This document shows positions 1 through 6,670 of a stretch of DNA of 64,000 nucleotides, piece after piece. Each line of letters opens with the position of its first letter. Positions within the stretch are counted from its first letter, which is position 1. Below the pieces are notes generated by a model that saw only the letters and a program-made list of their open reading frames with translations, searched no databases and was not told the origin of the DNA. The DNA is from Winogradskyella thalassocola (lineage in GTDB: Bacteria > Bacteroidota > Bacteroidia > Flavobacteriales > Flavobacteriaceae), in NCBI RefSeq assembly GCF_900099995.1, contig NZ_FNCZ01000011.1, positions 1-64,000 on the forward strand, given 5' to 3'. Made by a program: the position numbers and the translations under genes.

Positions 1-1
1 T

Positions 2-26
2 TGACCCGTCCTGAAATATGTATACA
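2..26. repeat. Left inverted repeat of the IS3-family element
   Basis: It starts TGACCCGTCCTGAAATA and matches the reverse complement of 1286-1310 at 20 of 25 positions. The mismatches are at repeat positions 3, 5, 12, 18 and 21. The OrfA reading frame begins inside it. Confidence 0.8.
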
Positions 27-407
27 CTAAACCAAATGTATATGTATAAAAATGATGGATATGTAAGACGTTATAGCGAAAGCTTTAAACTCAAAGTTCT
101 TGATGAACTTGCTAAGGGAAACCACTCTAAAAGACAAGTAGGATTGCTCTATGGCGTCCAATCCAGTACCATTAACGAATGGATAAAAAAGTACAATCGT
201 AAAGATTTAATGAACACCCGTGTAATCGTGCAAACAGATGATGAACTTACCCGAATAAAAGCCCTGCAAAAAGAGCTTAAACAGCTAAAGGAACTTCTCA
301 TAAAGAAAGACCTCGATAAACTTATTGATGATAGTTACCTCACTGTGGCTGCTAAGAAACTAGGCTACAAAGATGCTTTAGAACTCAAAAAAAAACTAAA
401 CATCTAG
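18..407 (+). CDS. IS3-family transposase OrfA (helix-turn-helix)
   Basis: This is the DNA-binding half of an IS3 transposase, 129 residues at most. Residues about 20-60 form a helix-turn-helix resembling the HTH_Tnp_1 family (SESFKLKVLDELAKG, then QSSTINEWIKKY). Residues about 77-103 are a leucine-rich coiled coil (LQKELKQLKELL) that normally mediates multimerisation with OrfB or OrfAB. The first ATG (18) lies within the inverted repeat; in-frame ATGs at 36 and 42 are equally possible starts. OrfB starts 5 bp after the stop in the -1 frame, with an A9 run at 387-395 just before the stop. Function is inferred from the family and the two-frame architecture. Confidence 0.87.
   Translation: MYTLNQMYMYKNDGYVRRYSESFKLKVLDELAKGNHSKRQVGLLYGVQSSTINEWIKKYNRKDLMNTRVIVQTDDELTRIKALQKELKQLKELLIKKDLDKLIDDSYLTVAAKKLGYKDALELKKKLNI
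387..395 (+). other. Probable -1 ribosomal frameshift site (A9 run)
   Basis: Nine adenines read as three AAA lysine codons in OrfA. The -1 frame is open from this run through to the OrfB ATG at 413, because the intervening codons in that frame contain no stop. Slippage here would therefore give an uninterrupted OrfAB protein. A-rich slippery heptamers at the orfA/orfB junction are typical of IS3 elements; use of this one is inferred. Confidence 0.6.
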
Positions 408-412
408 CACTA

Positions 413-1270
413 ATGGAGACTTTAGACAATAATCCAAAAGAAAGACCTTATAGTATAGCAACAATCTGTAAGGGATATTTCCTAACTCGTGATGCGTTTT
501 ATAAATACAAAAAGCGATACGTCAAGCGAATAAAGATTGAAAACCAAGTGTTGGAAATCGTTCATAAAAGAAGAAGGACTTTACCAAGAGAAGGCGCTCG
601 AAAGTTGATGCGGTCCCTAAAAACGGACTTTAAAAAACACAACATCAAAATTGGTAGAGATCAATTGTTACGTGTCCTCAGAGATAATAATCTTTTGATA
701 CGGAGAAAGAAATATTCGTCCAGAACAACAAACTCACATCATAGATTTTACAAATACAATAATAGTATTAAAGATGTAGAAATAGTTAGATGCAACCAAG
801 TGTGGGCTGCAGATATAACTTACATCAGAACTATTAAAGGATTTTGCTATCTAGCACTCTTAACAGATATGTATTCACGTAAAATCGTAGGTTATGATCT
901 AAGTGACAGCTTAGAGCTAACCGGTTGTGTTAGGGCGCTTAAAAAGGCAATCTATCATAATAAAGGACTCAAGAATCTAACCCACCACTCAGACAGAGGA
1001 ATACAATATTGCAGCAATGTATACACCAACGAGCTAAAGCGAAAAAAGATAGCAATTAGCATGACTGAAGAAAATCATTGTTATGAAAATGCCCTTGCAG
1101 AGCGGGTAAATGGAATTTTAAAAGATGAATTTTACCTCGACCAGACCTTTGCCAGCGTAGAAGATGCAAAAAGAGCAACTAAAAATGCAATCAAATTATA
1201 TAACTCTAAAAGATTACATTTATCTTTAGACTATAAAACACCTAATAATGTGCACCAAAATGCAGCTTAA
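413..1270 (+). CDS. IS3-family transposase OrfB (DDE integrase core)
   Basis: This is the catalytic half of the IS3 transposase, 285 residues. An N-terminal HTH_21-like segment (about residues 40-105, rich in Arg and Lys) precedes an rve-type RNase H-fold core. The catalytic triad can be read as D134 (in WAADITYIRT), D194 (in HHSDRGIQYC) and E230 (in ENALAE), with 35 residues between the second Asp and the Glu, the DD(35)E signature of IS3 elements. The C-terminal KRLHLSLDYKTPNNVH resembles the usual 'R.H..L.y.tP' tail. The frame is intact. It is expressed either alone from 413 or as the OrfAB fusion after a -1 shift in the A9 run. Confidence 0.92.
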   Translation: METLDNNPKERPYSIATICKGYFLTRDAFYKYKKRYVKRIKIENQVLEIVHKRRRTLPREGARKLMRSLKTDFKKHNIKIGRDQLLRVLRDNNLLIRRKKYSSRTTNSHHRFYKYNNSIKDVEIVRCNQVWAADITYIRTIKGFCYLALLTDMYSRKIVGYDLSDSLELTGCVRALKKAIYHNKGLKNLTHHSDRGIQYCSNVYTNELKRKKIAISMTEENHCYENALAERVNGILKDEFYLDQTFASVEDAKRATKNAIKLYNSKRLHLSLDYKTPNNVHQNAA

Positions 1271-1285
1271 TTTTAATCAATAACC

Positions 1286-1310
1286 TGTAGACGTATTTTA
1301 GGACGAGACA
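1286..1310. repeat. Right inverted repeat of the IS3-family element
   Basis: It ends TATTTTAGGACGAGACA, the imperfect reverse complement of the left end. It sets the right boundary of the IS 24 bp before the next gene start. Confidence 0.8.
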
Positions 1311-1334
1311 TTTACAAAAACCAAGCAAACATCA

Positions 1335-2156
1335 ATGAGATTAACAATTTTAATAACCACTTTCCTTCTCTCTCAACTGACCTTTTCACAGTCAATAGCA
1401 AGTTATAACAGCAATGCTACCAAATACGAAAAGAACGCGAATTTCACTCAAATTATTGAAAAAACGAGTTTTTATAATTCGGACGGAATTAAAACGGAAA
1501 TTGAGCATAAGGACTTCAATAAATCAATGCAATTGACAAGCCTTAAAAGATTCGATGATAAAAACAAATTGATTTGGCTAAATATTTATAAATATGACAG
1601 TTTACAGAGAAGAGTTAGACTTGATAACAAAAGATGGATAAATGTAATTGGATATCAAACAAAACACACTGAATATAAATATGATTCAATTGGAAATTTT
1701 GTTCAAATAGATTATAATTCACAAAAGCAAATTTCGAATATCGCTCAATACTTCTTGGACAAAGAAAAAAACTTAATTAGACTTGAGAACTATAACGGAA
1801 ATGGTAGTTTAATTGGTTATGAAACTGCAAATTATGATTTAGAAAATAATGTCGTGGTCGTTAATCAATATAATAATAAAAACGAGTTGGTCAATTCTAA
1901 CAATAGAGCAATAAGTCATTCTGGAGAGAAAAAACAAAAGACTTCTAATAAATATAATGAACAAGGAGATTTAATATTTTACAAAAGAAATTGGAACGAC
2001 AATGATAATGTTTGTTACACAATTGAATATAAGTATGACAAAAAAGGAAATTGGATTTCAAAAAAAAGATATAGCCATATTCAAACTGAAAGCGGCAAAT
2101 TGAAAAAGAAAAAAACAAAAATGGTTAAAACGAGAAAAATAAAATACGGAGAATAA
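1335..2156 (+). CDS. Secreted protein with degenerate YD-type repeats
   Basis: The protein has 273 residues with a signal peptide (about residues 1-18, ending TFSQ). The rest is a series of short Tyr-Asp motifs: YKYDSLQRRV, YKYDSIGNFVQ, NYDLENNVVV, KYNEQGDLI and YKYDKKGNW. Spaced Y-D-x-x-G-N motifs are the hallmark of YD/RHS-like beta-strand repeats, so an extracytoplasmic beta-rich protein is likely. It lacks an RHS core or toxin domain and is much shorter than RHS proteins, so I infer no activity. The composition is Lys- and Asn-rich. It starts 24 bp after the IS, so its original upstream region may have been replaced by the insertion. It is followed by an attC-like non-coding element, as is the next gene, so it looks like a mobile single-gene cassette. 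Confidence 0.6.
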   Translation: MRLTILITTFLLSQLTFSQSIASYNSNATKYEKNANFTQIIEKTSFYNSDGIKTEIEHKDFNKSMQLTSLKRFDDKNKLIWLNIYKYDSLQRRVRLDNKRWINVIGYQTKHTEYKYDSIGNFVQIDYNSQKQISNIAQYFLDKEKNLIRLENYNGNGSLIGYETANYDLENNVVVVNQYNNKNELVNSNNRAISHSGEKKQKTSNKYNEQGDLIFYKRNWNDNDNVCYTIEYKYDKKGNWISKKRYSHIQTESGKLKKKKTKMVKTRKIKYGE

Positions 2157-2323
2157 AAACGTACCCTAACAAAGTACTGTGCTAAAAAACAAGTAAAATC
2201 CCATTAATTTTTCACTAGCGTACTTTTATACGTTGCATCAAATATTAACCCAGATTTTGCGATAGCAAATGCTTGTTTTAGTAGCTTAATCACGCAACTA
2301 ATCATACACATCAACGTTAAAAA
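2157..2323 (+). repeat. Cassette-junction (attC-like) non-coding element, copy 1
   Basis: The 167 bp between two orphan genes begin directly after a stop codon with AAC and then AAAGTACTGTG (2171-2181), and end with AATCATACAC (2300-2309) and CAACGTT before the next ATG. Complementary arms GCTAAAAAACAAG (2181-2193) and CTTGTTTTAGTAGC (2272-2285) could fold the region into one large imperfect hairpin. The outer motifs recur in 3140-3289. A long imperfect palindrome between promoterless same-strand genes is how integron attC sites look. No integrase is present and the canonical core GTTRRRY is not matched cleanly, so the assignment is inference. Confidence 0.45.
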
Positions 2324-3139
2324 ATGAATAAAACAATATTAATATTCCTGATTTTAATAACAATTTTTTCTTGTAAAACAGAAGAGTCAACTGAAATAAT
2401 TGTTATTGGAACACTTCATAAACCAGAATCTAATTTTAACTCAGAGATTCTCTTCAATATATTAGAAGATGTTCAACCTGATTTTATATTAGAAGAACTA
2501 GACTCTTCTTTTTTTACTTCAGATTTTAGACACAAAAATGTTTCAAATAGTAATGAACGTATGGCATCTGAAAAGTATATTGAAAATTACCCTACTGCTA
2601 AATTGAGACCATATGAATTTGAAGGTAGAAATGAATATAGGATAAATATTGGATCACGACCTACTGATGGATTAACAACAAAACTCATAGATAGTTTAAA
2701 CAAAGTTGACCTATTATCTGATACAGAAGCCAAAATTCATAATAAATATAAAGCTCTTTTAGAACCATTAATAGTATTAGCTTCTAAATCACCTAAAAAC
2801 TTCAACAACCCATCAACAGATAGCATTTGCTCAGAAAGACAGTATTATCAATACAACATGCTGACAAGAATAACGAATAAAAGAGATGAGTTCGCAACTC
2901 GTTTTCATACCAAACCAAATGGTGAAAAAATAAGTTACCGAGATGGATATCAGTTGGCTAGTGATTTTTGGGATTTAAGAAATCAAACAATGGCTAAAAA
3001 TATAATGCGAATTTCTGAACAGAATCAAGGTAAAAAAATTGTTGTACTCTGTGGATTTATGCATAGATATTATATTTTAAGTGAATTGAGAAAATTAACA
3101 GAGGGCAAAAATATTATCATAAAAGAGTTTTACGAATAA
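2324..3139 (+). CDS. Putative lipoprotein, TraB/GumN-like
   Basis: The protein has 271 residues with a lipoprotein signal (residues 1-17, lipobox IFSC with Cys17). The mature part opens with IIVIGTLHKP (G29-H32), followed by DFILEELD (about 53-60). Near the C-terminus is KKIVVLCGFMHRYYI. A GT-x-H motif after a short strand, a conserved Glu-Glu about 25 residues later and a late G-x-x-H motif are the pattern of TraB/PrgY/GumN-type proteins, some of which are metal-dependent proteases. The match is at motif level only. It sits in the cassette-like run with attC-like elements on both sides. The alternative is an unassigned lipoprotein. Confidence 0.5.
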   Translation: MNKTILIFLILITIFSCKTEESTEIIVIGTLHKPESNFNSEILFNILEDVQPDFILEELDSSFFTSDFRHKNVSNSNERMASEKYIENYPTAKLRPYEFEGRNEYRINIGSRPTDGLTTKLIDSLNKVDLLSDTEAKIHNKYKALLEPLIVLASKSPKNFNNPSTDSICSERQYYQYNMLTRITNKRDEFATRFHTKPNGEKISYRDGYQLASDFWDLRNQTMAKNIMRISEQNQGKKIVVLCGFMHRYYILSELRKLTEGKNIIIKEFYE

Positions 3140-3289
3140 TAAAAACTGTTGCCAATAAAGTACTATGGAAAAAACACACCACATCCCAACGCAGTGGTAC
3201 ATACATAATGAATCATACACCATTACCAAAATTAAAAGAATAACATCAGAGACTACAAATAGTCTTATATATTACTATAAAATAACAAA
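3140..3289 (+). repeat. Cassette-junction (attC-like) non-coding element, copy 2
   Basis: The 150 bp have the same two landmarks as copy 1: AAAGTACTATG at 3157-3167 close to the upstream stop, and AATCATACAC at 3211-3220 toward the next gene. The first 24 bases align to copy 1 at about 16 positions. The interior differs and shows less obvious self-complementarity. A third, very short relative (AACGTTGTTATCAA) follows the next stop at about 3526. Confidence 0.4.
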
Positions 3290-3523
3290 ATGATTATAGA
3301 GCAAGAACAAAAATTTAAAGAGGTACTTTCTAAAATAGAAGGGAAAATTAATGAACAAAGTTTTTTTAATAAGTTTTTGGAATTGTATCCTGACGTTTGG
3401 AAAAAACATAAATCTATCTTTTTTAAATTTAATAGAAGCAAACAATTTGGACAAACAATACCGTTAGCAAATCCTGAAGTTTCATTACGAAAAGAAATTA
3501 GGATATGGTTACAGAAACAATAA
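3290..3523 (+). CDS. Small protein of unknown function
   Basis: The predicted protein is 77 residues, basic and hydrophilic, without a signal peptide or membrane segment. It contains NEQSFFNKFLELYPDVWKKH, reminiscent of a helical hairpin, and a C-terminal basic helix (RKEIRIWLQKQ). I do not recognise a family. It starts at an ATG after the second attC-like element and ends just before a short third relative. Its position as a lone gene between junction elements supports reality more than its sequence does. It could be the remnant of a longer cassette gene. Confidence 0.45.
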   Translation: MIIEQEQKFKEVLSKIEGKINEQSFFNKFLELYPDVWKKHKSIFFKFNRSKQFGQTIPLANPEVSLRKEIRIWLQKQ

Positions 3524-3539
3524 AAACGTTGTTATCAAT

Positions 3540-4106
3540 TTGAGAAAAAAGCAAAAAGTCACTACATTGATAATTATGGTAATCCTTAATTGGGCATGTA
3601 AGAACACCGTTAATCTAGAAATGAAAACTAAAGATATGCTAGAGCATATAGAAGTGAGAGAATTAAATACTAATCATTGGCAAACCTATACAGATATTGT
3701 AATTGATGCTCCAATTGAAAAAGTATGGAAAGTTTTAACGGATTGGAATAACATTTCGAATTGGAGTAGCTCTCTTGTAGGAATTAATGGAAATACTCAT
3801 AACAACGGAAAAGTTATGATTTCATACTTAGTAGACGGAAAAACATATAATACACCACATGTTTTTATTTATAAGGACATGCAAGAATTTGGATGGTCAG
3901 ACCCTATGGAAGGAAGTTTTAAAGGATTGATGGACAATCACAGATTTAGAGTAGAGAAGATTTCTGATACGGAAACGCGCTTTATACAATCTGATGACTT
4001 TAAAGGATTAGGAAACAAAGACATGTCGGCTGAGCAAGTAGCCAAGATTACAGTGGAATTCTTCCCTATATTTAACCGAGAATTAAAAATTGAGGTTGAA
4101 AACTAA
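3540..4106 (+). CDS. SRPBCC-family lipoprotein (polyketide cyclase-like fold)
   Basis: The protein has up to 188 residues starting at TTG. That start gives a proper lipoprotein signal: basic RKKQK, hydrophobic TTLIIMVILNW, then lipobox NWAC. The first ATG (3576) would remove most of it. Residues about 48-188 read as an SRPBCC/START-like domain: YTDIVIDAPIEKVWKVLTDW, then NWSSSLVGING, ending in a long C-terminal helix (SAEQVAKITVEFFPIFNREL). Such domains enclose hydrophobic ligands; the ligand here is unknown. The 3' end overlaps the acyltransferase frame by 17 bp, suggesting co-translation. A membrane-anchored SRPBCC protein is less common than the cytosolic form. Confidence 0.7.
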   Translation: MRKKQKVTTLIIMVILNWACKNTVNLEMKTKDMLEHIEVRELNTNHWQTYTDIVIDAPIEKVWKVLTDWNNISNWSSSLVGINGNTHNNGKVMISYLVDGKTYNTPHVFIYKDMQEFGWSDPMEGSFKGLMDNHRFRVEKISDTETRFIQSDDFKGLGNKDMSAEQVAKITVEFFPIFNRELKIEVEN

Positions 4107-5184
4107 AGTTACAAATAGAATCTACCAATTAGACGTATTTCGATTTATTGCGGCTTTAATTGTTGTGCTTTATCATTATCTATTTAGAGGGTATACAGCA
4201 GATCATTTGTCTGATTTAAACTTTAGTGACATTAGTGACTACTTTAAATATGGTTACTTAGGTATTAATATCTTCTTTATGATTAGTGGTTTTGTAATTT
4301 TACTTTCTATTAAAGATCGATCGATACTAAAATTTATAATTTCTAGAATTTCAAGGCTGTATCCAATGTATTGGATTTGCGTTTTACTAACCTTCATGGT
4401 TATTCTATTATTTGGAGAACCAAGATTTACAGCAGAGTTTAGTCAGTTCTTTTATAACCTTACGATGTTTCATAATTATATCGGAGTCGAAAGTATTGAT
4501 GGAGTATATTGGACTTTATTTATAGAAATGAAATTCTATATTTTCGTTATCGGTTCATATCTCGTCTTAAACAAATTAAAACACATAAAACTAGATTATC
4601 TAATTTATACCTGGCTGACACTATCCATGTTATATCTGTTTTTTAACGACCATTTTATTTTTAGAATTGGTAAATCCCTCTTTATACTAGACTGGAGTTC
4701 TTATTTTATTGCCGGAATTATTTTTTATCAGATTTATAAAAGTAAGTTGAATCTAAAATATGCATTAGTATTGCTAATTACTTTATCAATATCCATACAA
4801 CACACTATTGTTGAGACAGCTAAAAAAGCGAGGCATTTTAATGTTGAATTCGATCCCTATATTGCTTGTGGTATAATTGTTCTCTTTTATCTATTAATAT
4901 TACTTGTGGCTTGCAATAAATTGAAACACATAAATTCTTCTAAGTTCATTAAAATAGGAATGCTCACCTACCCGCTTTATTTACTTCATCAGAAAATTGG
5001 GTATATTATTTTTGATAATTTAGGAAATGACACCAACAAGTATGTCGTCGTAATTGCGACAACTTTATTCATGATCTTTTTATCCTTTATTTTAAGTGAG
5101 TTTTATGAACCAAGAGTGTCTGGTTATTTAAAATCTAAATTAAGACAGTTATCATCAAAGTATGTCTCAAAACCGACCAATTAA
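4090..5184 (+). CDS. Acyltransferase 3 family membrane protein (OafA-like)
   Basis: This is an integral membrane O-acyltransferase of about 364 residues with roughly ten hydrophobic helices. The N-terminus YQLDVFRFIAALIVVLYHY carries the family R...H signature, followed by YLGINIFFMISGFVI and SRISRLYPMYWICV, all characteristic of Acyl_transf_3. Relatives transfer acetyl or other acyl groups from the cytoplasm to periplasmic sugars, O-antigen or lipids; the acceptor is unknown. No ATG lies near the family N-terminus, so the start is TTG at 4090 or 4096, inside the end of the preceding SRPBCC gene. The 3' end overlaps the next frame by 23 bp, making a three-gene overlapping unit. Confidence 0.88.
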   Translation: MRLKTKVTNRIYQLDVFRFIAALIVVLYHYLFRGYTADHLSDLNFSDISDYFKYGYLGINIFFMISGFVILLSIKDRSILKFIISRISRLYPMYWICVLLTFMVILLFGEPRFTAEFSQFFYNLTMFHNYIGVESIDGVYWTLFIEMKFYIFVIGSYLVLNKLKHIKLDYLIYTWLTLSMLYLFFNDHFIFRIGKSLFILDWSSYFIAGIIFYQIYKSKLNLKYALVLLITLSISIQHTIVETAKKARHFNVEFDPYIACGIIVLFYLLILLVACNKLKHINSSKFIKIGMLTYPLYLLHQKIGYIIFDNLGNDTNKYVVVIATTLFMIFLSFILSEFYEPRVSGYLKSKLRQLSSKYVSKPTN

Positions 5185-5617
5185 GTACGAGATGAAAGTG
5201 TTATTAAACAATATAGAAGTTACTAAAGAAACTCTCTTAGTAAACAGTGGTATGAACTACGGGAGATTCTATAACCATTATACCGAAGATTATGAAATTC
5301 AACTCAGCACTTCTGAATTTATTCACTTAATTGAAAGCGAGTACAATAACATTAGAAACGAAATAAAGATAGACGACCAACGTCATGAGGATGATTCAGA
5401 TTTTAAGAGCACTAATTATTGCACATTATCAGAGCTCTTAGTTTATAAATCGGAGTTTGAAGCCATAGTCAAAACCTATTTAGATCAAATACTTTTTGAT
5501 AAACTATTCTCTAATTCTGCAAGTAACACGTTTGTTATAAATAGCACAGAATCGGTGTCTGTAATTGAGAATAAGGTGGTTATAAGTGGCAAAGCATATC
5601 GGTTAGAACCCAAATAA
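5162..5617 (+). CDS. Protein of unknown function
   Basis: The predicted protein has 151 residues, is acidic and has no signal peptide or transmembrane segment. It starts at an ATG overlapping the acyltransferase end by 23 bp, or at the in-frame ATG 5192, which leaves an 8 bp gap. Helical segments (SEFIHLIESEYNNIRNEI, then LSELLVYKSEFEAIVKTYLD) precede a beta-rich C-terminus (VSVIENKVVISGKAYRLEP). No family was recognised. Position and orientation suggest co-transcription with the acyltransferase. It converges on holA with only 27 bp between. Confidence 0.5.
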   Translation: MSQNRPIKYEMKVLLNNIEVTKETLLVNSGMNYGRFYNHYTEDYEIQLSTSEFIHLIESEYNNIRNEIKIDDQRHEDDSDFKSTNYCTLSELLVYKSEFEAIVKTYLDQILFDKLFSNSASNTFVINSTESVSVIENKVVISGKAYRLEPK

Positions 5618-5644
5618 TAACAGGCTATTTTTAAATACTATTAA

Positions 5645-6670
5645 CTATCCTAAAATCTTAACTAACAACTCTTTAAGCAAGTCACCTTGAGGTATTGCAT
5701 TAGCACCAACACCTTTGCTTTTTACATCTGTTTCGCGAAGTAAACCAATTATATAGCTCACTTTTTTCATCGGATAATTTCTAGCAGCATCTAAATATTC
5801 GTTCACAAAATAAGGGTTCACCTTTAATGCCGAAGCGACACTACGAGGATTTCTATCAGACATACCATGAAGATGTAATAATTGTGAAAAGAAGCCGAAT
5901 AACAACGCTACAGAAACCACTATAGGATTGTCCTTTGGATTTTCTGCAAAGTATTTTGCTATTTGGTGCGCTTTTAAAACATTACGCTCTCCCACGGCCT
6001 TTCGTAATTCAAAATTATTAAAATCCTTACTGATTCCAATATTTTGCTCAATATGATCTGGAGTTATTTGTGTTCCTTCTGGTAAAACAATTTTGAGCTT
6101 ATTAAGTTCGTTATCGATTTTGCTAAGGTTAGTGCCAAGAAATTCAACCAACATCTGAGCCGCTTTTGGCGAAATATTATAATTCTGACCCGCTAAAACA
6201 CGTCTAATCCAATCGGCAACTTGGTTTTCATACATTTTCTTACTTTCGAAAACAATACCACCGTGTTTATTAATTGCCTTATATAAAGCCTTACGCTTAT
6301 CTATCTTTTTGTACTTATAATTAATAACTAAAACCGTTGAAGGTTGCGAATTAGCAGCGTATTGCGCCAACTGCTCTATGGTTCTACTTAAGTCTTGTGC
6401 TTCCTTAACAATAACAACTTGGCGTTCTGCCATCATCGGATAACGCTTAGCATTACTCACAATGTCATCTATAGTGACATCGCGCCCATAAAGCACCATT
6501 TGGTTGAATCCTTTCTCGGTTTCGTCCAAAACATTGTCTTCAATATAATCTGAAATCTTATCTATATAATAGGCTTCTTCTCCCATTAAAAAATAGATAG
6601 GCTTAAGATCTCCCTTTTGTATTGCAGCTACTAATTTTTTTACGTCGTCCAAAATTGATATAAATTCCAC
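5645..6670 (-). CDS. holA: DNA polymerase III subunit delta
   Basis: This is the delta subunit of the clamp loader, which opens the beta clamp for replication; 341 residues is the normal length. The N-terminus LKPIYFLMGEEAYYIDKISDYIE is the divergent AAA+ start of HolA. Typical later features are TVLVINYKYKKIDKR, a helical collar segment (MLVEFLGTNLSKIDNELNKL) and the C-terminal GDLLKELLVKIL. ATG 6670 gives a six-residue leader; the TTG codon at 6652 would give MDDVKKLVAAIQ, closer to relatives as I recall them, so the start is uncertain. It diverges from the HsdR_N-like gene. Confidence 0.93.
   Translation of the reverse strand: MEFISILDDVKKLVAAIQKGDLKPIYFLMGEEAYYIDKISDYIEDNVLDETEKGFNQMVLYGRDVTIDDIVSNAKRYPMMAERQVVIVKEAQDLSRTIEQLAQYAANSQPSTVLVINYKYKKIDKRKALYKAINKHGGIVFESKKMYENQVADWIRRVLAGQNYNISPKAAQMLVEFLGTNLSKIDNELNKLKIVLPEGTQITPDHIEQNIGISKDFNNFELRKAVGERNVLKAHQIAKYFAENPKDNPIVVSVALLFGFFSQLLHLHGMSDRNPRSVASALKVNPYFVNEYLDAARNYPMKKVSYIIGLLRETDVKSKGVGANAIPQGDLLKELLVKILG

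Follow-up and report, generated by a model that had tools for sequence, protein, structure and literature searches.

The first 3.5 kb of a 64,000-nucleotide stretch of the Winogradskyella thalassocola genome (assembly GCF_900099995.1, contig NZ_FNCZ01000011.1, positions 1 to 64,000 of the forward strand; G000:C9:1-64000 among our handles, and hereafter the window) are very probably the degraded remains of a system resembling integrons. This system, which is of the integron kind but unlike the IntI type, is spread through Bacteroidota and consists of single-gene cassettes arrayed beside tyrosine recombinase genes. Judged from sequence, it works like an integron, and by two tests on the enzyme, the IntI score cut-off and the IntI-specific insert, it is not an IntI integron. 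The best explanation, to which we assign a probability of about 85%, would be that the tyrosine recombinase encoded beside the arrays excises cassettes and inserts them at the core and at an attI-like site. Because the cassettes of the window fail the arm test described below, the case rests on relatives and on other contigs of the same genome.

Cassettes with matched arms and their spread

Intact cassettes as a rule carry a single gene flanked by inverted arms that are particular to the cassette (GTTRNNNNNN ... NNNNNNYAAC); position 11 is a fixed A.C mismatch. An iterated hidden Markov model (HMM) of whole sites gave 51 matches in the examined stretches of the W. thalassocola genome, dozens of them better preserved than the decayed copies in the window. 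The first HMM, built on sites of this genome, found sites in only 7 of 80 named loci, the 80 top-ranking ones among 589 stretches confirmed in a scan of named genomes with a 22-sequence alignment. Because sites differ between genera, we added an arm test that uses no site model and requires an inverted pair that is exact over 10 bp and contains GTTR; a pair is written A/G when position 11 is A in the 5' arm and C in the 3' arm. The results showed 33 such pairs in the array stretches of the own genome, of which 24 were A/G (one cassette being counted twice, on two contigs), and 22 of these 24 matched at positions 12-14 too. The controls yielded 2 pairs in positions 6001-64000 of the window and 3 in the other own stretches, none with the A/G signature. 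In the 80 named loci, A/G pairs numbered 51, G/A pairs 7 and each other combination at most 7. Pairs were A/G in 50 of 62 at 27 named loci with a recombinase of the HARP type, that is, with a HARP-like N-terminal domain, versus 4 of 24 at those of the loci L130-L169 that are without it.

Compared cassette by cassette, 12 of 35 own-genome cassettes had arms matching over 9 or 10 letters, and the remaining 23 had arms matching over 0-4 letters; no arm match across a junction between cassettes (n = 36) exceeded 7 letters. Of 58 signature cassettes in five same-genus and fourteen own stretches, all but two have their longest open reading frame (ORF) on the array strand, and in 39 of these 56 it begins 12-44 bp past the GTT. 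The cassettes thus form arrays of single genes in one orientation; the locus L234 has 11 signature cassettes. Defence-like cassette genes were seen at L232:16278-17777, L233:9454-10716, L233:17572-19380 and L234:12523-13248 (PDC-M11A, type II methyltransferase, AriA-like ATPase and Abi_C).

The occurrence of a single cassette in other genomes was traced with a stretch on contig C26, which was searched in 68 same-genus genomes, its 605-bp cassette being aligned to 20 of the loci returned. In nine of these (L170-L176, L178 and L180) the cassette is bounded by both GTT and AAC at identical positions, four align over almost the entire length with one core altered or lost, and seven align partly, L184 and L186 keeping the AAC end a few bases off. 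When the flanks of the nine exact-end loci (up to about 1.5 kb) were compared by tblastx at E <= 1e-8, no same-side match was longer than 63 residues, and matches up to that length are what repeated sites produce. A gene is common to L173 and L177, but on opposite sides of the cassette; L188 and L189, which have both neighbours in common, are not cassettes. The first-pass annotation, made from the window alone, had proposed a mobile-cassette array with attC-like junctions dispersed through Flavobacteriaceae. Both ideas are borne out in the relatives: different genes lie between sites of the same kind, one cassette occurs in many genomes beside varied neighbours, and the sequence model of the site has matches in 67 of the 68 same-genus genomes (in 27 of them the count equals the 51 candidates that were scored and is therefore a lower bound). 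The contrary outcome, blocks confined to the same genes or of unconserved structure, was not what we found, and confinement is ruled out by the different genes between sites across genomes.

These data could also be read as cassettes spreading by homologous recombination between repeated sites, the recombinase being a passenger gene. The sites are indeed long and alike, so that homology could shuffle genes, and they also occur far from any recombinase. However, homology between sites would not keep both arms of a cassette matched, nor would it put arrays beside one recombinase kind in many genera, and we consider this explanation very unlikely.

Tyrosine recombinase genes beside the arrays

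The first-pass annotation had found no integrase in the window, which holds for the blocks on the examined part of their own contig; a candidate mobilising enzyme, which it could not name, is now proposed from elsewhere in the genome. The search for a tyrosine recombinase near the sites, as it had suggested, was successful on contigs C17 and C16, in each case with cassettes following. The C17 protein (P0001, 398 amino acids) is a tyrosine recombinase and the best match, under the cut-off, to IntI in the genome, and after its gene come a site and then a cassette whose arms match; beyond the C16 gene a cassette starts at L054:11406, 43 bp past the last codon. In a tree, the C16 recombinase groups with that of Winogradskyella ursingii among named records. 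The four other tyrosine recombinase loci of the genome (L056-L059) had no site match at E <= 1.

The association between gene and array was then compared across the 80 named loci. Among the 33 HARP-type recombinases, 25 have 1 kb of DNA downstream, and a cassette starts within 500 bp in 18 of the 25; among the 47 without HARP, 42 have 1 kb downstream and 3 have such a cassette start (a fourth locus joins them if DNA length is ignored), the HARP profile behind this division having been built partly from the tested recombinase proteins. Random positions gave a cassette start within 500 bp in 72 of 4000 cases. In a second set of 18 same-genus loci, hand-chosen, with larger stretches taken, from the 47 of 60 genomes that have a recombinase match, A/G cassettes are found no more than about 1 kb from the gene in 17, downstream in 13 and divergently in 4 (L229, L230, L238 and L246); in the eighteenth, L235, the contig terminates about 110 bp past the recombinase gene. 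Array-linked recombinases were found in named genera from Zunongwangia to Rufibacter.

The sequence ahead of the first GTT was compared in 28 same-direction and 6 divergent loci. Six genes of type B share GTGGATATA-N(9-10)-TATATCCARTT directly before the GTT, 43-45 bp after the stop codon, and ATATAACRA occurs in five of seven type-A genes, 27-46 bp after the stop; the other same-direction loci differ. Many arrays begin behind a short conserved stretch of this kind, which might correspond to a putative attI.

With regard to the enzyme itself, no IntI (TIGR02249) was found over the cut-off in the W. thalassocola genome, which is rated 100% complete, with some contigs read as N; a hidden IntI over the cut-off is ruled out by this search. 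Against the IntI model P0001 reaches 202 bits (cut-off 265), and the array-linked or HARP-type enzymes P0001, L083, L103, L107 and L124 span 188-205 bits, versus 404-435 for true IntI. The closest solved relatives of P0001 are XerA-type proteins and IntI4. Its residues 282-298 align across IntI4 181-240, and IntI4 residues 181-240, which we take to hold the IntI-specific insert, are left out of the alignment. The array-linked recombinase thus likely lacks this insert and is not an IntI. Six residues (R236, K261, H325, R328, H351 and Y360) are invariant in 22 aligned recombinase sequences and are taken, by homology, as catalytic. In the tree, three IntI loci share a branch of their own. The HARP-type enzymes lie outside it and tend to group together, yet not as one clade (8 changes are needed). 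The closest catalytic relatives in the searches are XerA-like recombinases (NF040815, PDB 4A8E and 5HXY), from which the array-linked enzymes differ in mostly carrying an extra N-terminal domain and in their adjoining cassette arrays.

The N-terminal domain of P0001 matched no Pfam family over its cut-off and gave no Foldseek match at E <= 0.001; the top match of the domain profile in PDB was the HARP domain of SMARCAL1 (E 0.1). Pfam HARP itself was over the cut-off in one of seven proteins (L124, 29.6 versus 25 bits), with L093 and L128 under it, and the own-genome enzyme was not matched at all. Judged from profiles and structures, the domain resembles SMARCAL1 HARP and the XPB damage-recognition domain in fold, with modest similarity; there it is joined to a helicase and here to a tyrosine recombinase. 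Matches to the HARP-like domain were found in 58 of 296 genomes of Bacteroidota, representing 32 of 139 genera; judged by ORF length, some of the matches do not belong to recombinases. Two recombinases of about 277 amino acids, in L229 (8037-8867) and L230 (5783-6616), are without the N-terminal domain and lie divergent from their adjacent cassettes.

Two further observations concern the range of these genes. L124, a contig of a metagenome-assembled genome assigned to Spirochaetota, carries a HARP-type recombinase with an adjacent cassette signature. Relatives of the recombinase, at more than 90% coverage, are also present on the plasmids NZ_CP041688.1, NZ_CP094530.1, NZ_CP111080.1 and CP012862.1 (Chryseobacterium, Pontibacter, Persicobacter), and one plasmid-borne relative is annotated 'site-specific tyrosine recombinase/integron integrase'.

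The predicted fold of the site and a proposed choice of strand

Fifty distinct sites (5 own, 31 same-genus and 14 named) were folded on both strands, with their own arms joined and with DNA parameters. The bottom strand was the more stable in 50 of 50 sites; it remained so in all 50 when the arms were shortened to 10 bp, and in 48 when the middle was folded by itself. These are minimum-energy predictions, and the sites had been picked by their A/G signature, a choice that biases the full-arm comparison, and only that one, towards the bottom strand. The folds contain 107 G.T pairs on the bottom strand and 29 on the top; an A.C mismatch on the top is a G.T pair on the bottom, which explains the strand asymmetry. 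A loop follows the first stem in 46 of the 50 folds, 28 of them with a one-sided bulge of 3 nucleotides there, and is absent from the other 4. In the next 12 bp, the second stem, 36 of these 46 predicted folds have no one-sided bulge and 10 have one.

Known attC sites are reported to share extrahelical bases, a central spacer and a terminal structure, and only their bottom strand recombines (PMC2727003). The present system is like integrons in several respects: a recombinase gene lies beside single-gene cassettes that are arrayed in one direction, the cores are AAC/GTT, the two arms of a cassette match each other, and the bottom strand of the hairpin is predicted to be the more stable. It is unlike them in its recombinase, which is insert-less and not IntI, in the fixed A.C at position 11, in an attI-like stretch of other form, in a predicted stem that mostly has wobble pairs instead of one-sided bulges, and in being found mainly in Bacteroidota. 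At the IntI locus L168, arms of 10-13 letters chain without a fixed position-11 mismatch, which indicates that arm matching is shared with integrons, whereas the position-11 rule may not be; the IntI loci L154 and L164 have no chained arms.

This likeness raises the question of whether we are dealing with a true integron whose IntI is divergent or unassembled and whose sites are ordinary attC. AAC/GTT cores, arm pairing of 9-11 bp and a hairpin are canonical attC features (PMC2727003), one-sided bulges do occur in 10 of the predicted folds, and the nearest NCBI family, the XerA-like NF040815, bears the name 'site-specific tyrosine recombinase/integron integrase', with P0001 just short of its cut-off (217.9 versus 220 bits) and the W. 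ursingii recombinase over it (243.3 bits). We nevertheless hold this to be unlikely in view of the enzyme results above, namely the empty IntI search in a genome rated complete, the scores far under the IntI cut-off, the skipped IntI4 stretch and the separate branch of the IntI loci.

In the integron-like system that we favour, the recombinase would cut at the GTT/AAC core, excise circular cassettes and insert them at the attI-like site, and its substrate would probably be the folded bottom strand. There the stem would be kept continuous by G.T wobble pairs, read as unpaired A.C on the top, so that the choice of strand would lie in the wobble pairs; at IntI sites, extrahelical bases would serve where wobble pairs do here. 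The HARP/XPB-like N-terminus of most of the recombinases may help to bind folded DNA. A broader proposal, for which we put the odds somewhat above even, is that Bacteroidota have an integron lineage of their own, in which HARP-type recombinases would have evolved capture apart from IntI, with the bottom strand specified through G.T wobble pairs acting as a code, and that these integrons hold many accessory genes, some of them for defence.

Several points weigh against a recombinase-driven system. No recombination was observed, and it is we who infer it; the folds are predictions on selected sites, as stated above. Among the own cassettes, the 23 with poorly matching arms, to which those of the window belong, do not pass the exact arm test, and in many of them the core was not recognised. 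In near-complete genomes (e.g. G004 and G010), sites are also found far from the recombinase, unlike one tidy array. Seven of the 25 HARP-type genes with enough DNA have no exact signature nearby, and among the three non-HARP loci with an adjacent cassette, L145 looks like chance. The C17 gene of the own genome has an attC-like site 0.3-0.5 kb on and no short attI-like stretch. The HARP-like domain is not essential, since L229 and L230 also have adjacent cassettes, and its similarity is modest: Pfam HARP matches 4 of 48 proteins at E <= 1, and the predicted model (predicted local distance difference test score 88) aligns to archaeal XPB over 59 residues with Z 7.2, graded middling by the tool, the first eIF1-type fold coming after it with Z 6.3.

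Among the matches listed in the PMC literature, preprints being outside the scope, we found no description of this system. Surveys of integrons have found few of them in Bacteroidota. A passage on IntegronFinder 2.0 reports one complete integron in Bacteroidetes proper, that of Salinibacter ruber, and calls the lack of integrons in some clades intriguing (PMC9024848); two other papers count Bacteroidota among the phyla with integrons (PMC8618304, PMC9668308). IntI-based tools would probably miss the arrays described here. The arrays offer a test of how a recombinase without the IntI insert recognises a folded single-stranded site, and they open a further source in which mobile genes may be sought, defence-like ones among them.

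An IS110 element in the sites and the layout of the window

The three ORFs on one strand reported by the first-pass annotation (Table 1) are present, and so are the motifs it described at their junctions, a left one (AAAGTACTGTG at 2171-2181 and AAAGTACTATG at 3157-3167) and a right one (AATCATACAC at 2300-2309 and 3211-3220). The right motif is, as it had supposed, a junction element: an uninterrupted site at the start of contig C5 has arms TGTGTAT..TTGC / GCAA..ATACACA, and the motif is the right arm of this attC-like site. The left motif, AAAGTACTRTG, is not part of the junction and is instead the end of an IS110-family insertion sequence (IS), because longer copies of the first block enter, from this motif on, an opposite-strand ORF with PF02371 (Transposase_20) coding sequence. 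PF02371 is over the cut-off at four contig ends, and PF01548 is under it at one. The IS110 remnant in the window is 98% identical to copies that continue into the PF02371 coding sequence, and the supposed attC hairpin (2181-2193 with 2272-2285) lies inside it. What had been described as one repeated block is therefore two joined things, an IS110 3' end (2171 to about 2288) and only the right arm of an attC-like site (about 2288-2318; site HMM match at 2278-2316, 19.9 bits), and a plain attC-like element is ruled out for the left half. The repetition is real for the first block, with 24 rows in the own genome including itself, beyond chance; the second is degenerate and has, besides itself, one weak 38-base relative there.

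In 22 copies from the stretches examined, the triplet before the left motif is AAC in 18, ATC in 2, AAT in 1 and unrelated in 1; for the other IS end there are 12 pattern matches, of which 9 are followed by the remainder of the site and 3 look like chance. These results indicate that the IS110 element enters the site at one point. IS1111-attC insertion sequences are IS110/IS1111-type elements that insert at cassette recombination sites. The element described here is like that group in entering such sites at one point and differs in its target, the Bacteroidota site.

The IS110 ends, the AAC before them and the many copies at contig ends also allow the idea that the junctions are IS110 target sites with debris, and that the cassette appearance is a by-product of the element. 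IS110 traces are confined to L230, L232 and L243 among 38 recombinase loci (18 same-genus, 20 named), the other 35 having neither the IS110 end motif nor a transposase-fragment match, and matched arms and arrays are found in IS110-free loci. Arrays such as that of L234 refute this reading as a full account, and we regard it as exceedingly improbable.

The window begins at a contig end, with an IS3-family element at the terminus; cassette 1 has probably lost its 5' end to this element.

Table 1. Features in the first 3.5 kb of the window
Feature	Positions	Strand	Remarks
IS3-family element, transposase ORFs 18-407 and 413-1270	1-1310	+	HTH_Tnp_1 and rve matches over cut-off
Cassette 1 gene	1335-2156	+	ORF, without Pfam match
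Cassette 1 3' arm, R''-like, GTACCCTAAC	2161-2170	+	Place and form match intact cassettes
IS110-family remnant (right end and 3' end of transposase gene), containing the earlier left motif and hairpin	2171-2288	-	
attC-like right arm, terminating in GTT, containing the right motif	2288-2318	+	
Cassette 2 gene, weak DUF5694-like	2324-3139	+	ORF list, Pfam
Cassette 2 3' arm, TGTTGCCAAT, AAC decayed	3147-3156	+	Mismatch to cassette 2 5' end (match 0)
Decayed junction	3157-3230	+	IS110 right-end trace 3157-3167; attC-like right arm from about 3205
Cassette 3 gene, 77 amino acids	3290-3523	+	Without Pfam match
Possible decayed cassette 3 3' end	3524-3540	+	By inspection only

The first and third ORFs had zero Pfam matches at E <= 0.001, and the DUF5694 match of the second was under the family cut-off. 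Rfam gave only low-scoring matches in positions 1-6000 of the window, all inside gene 2. At the gathering threshold, seven site-bearing sources gave two Rfam matches, a tmRNA and a DUF805 RNA, neither of which is the site; the DUF805 RNA lies just within a cassette 5' end (L100:16062-16128). A short repeated insert, CGAGCGCARCGAACAGACGAAGT, is found within the right arm of several sites (L010, twice, L019 and L036). Two sites of about 180 bp (L233:15812-15999 and L107:12573-12755) contain an additional AT-rich palindrome that may be a small mobile element.

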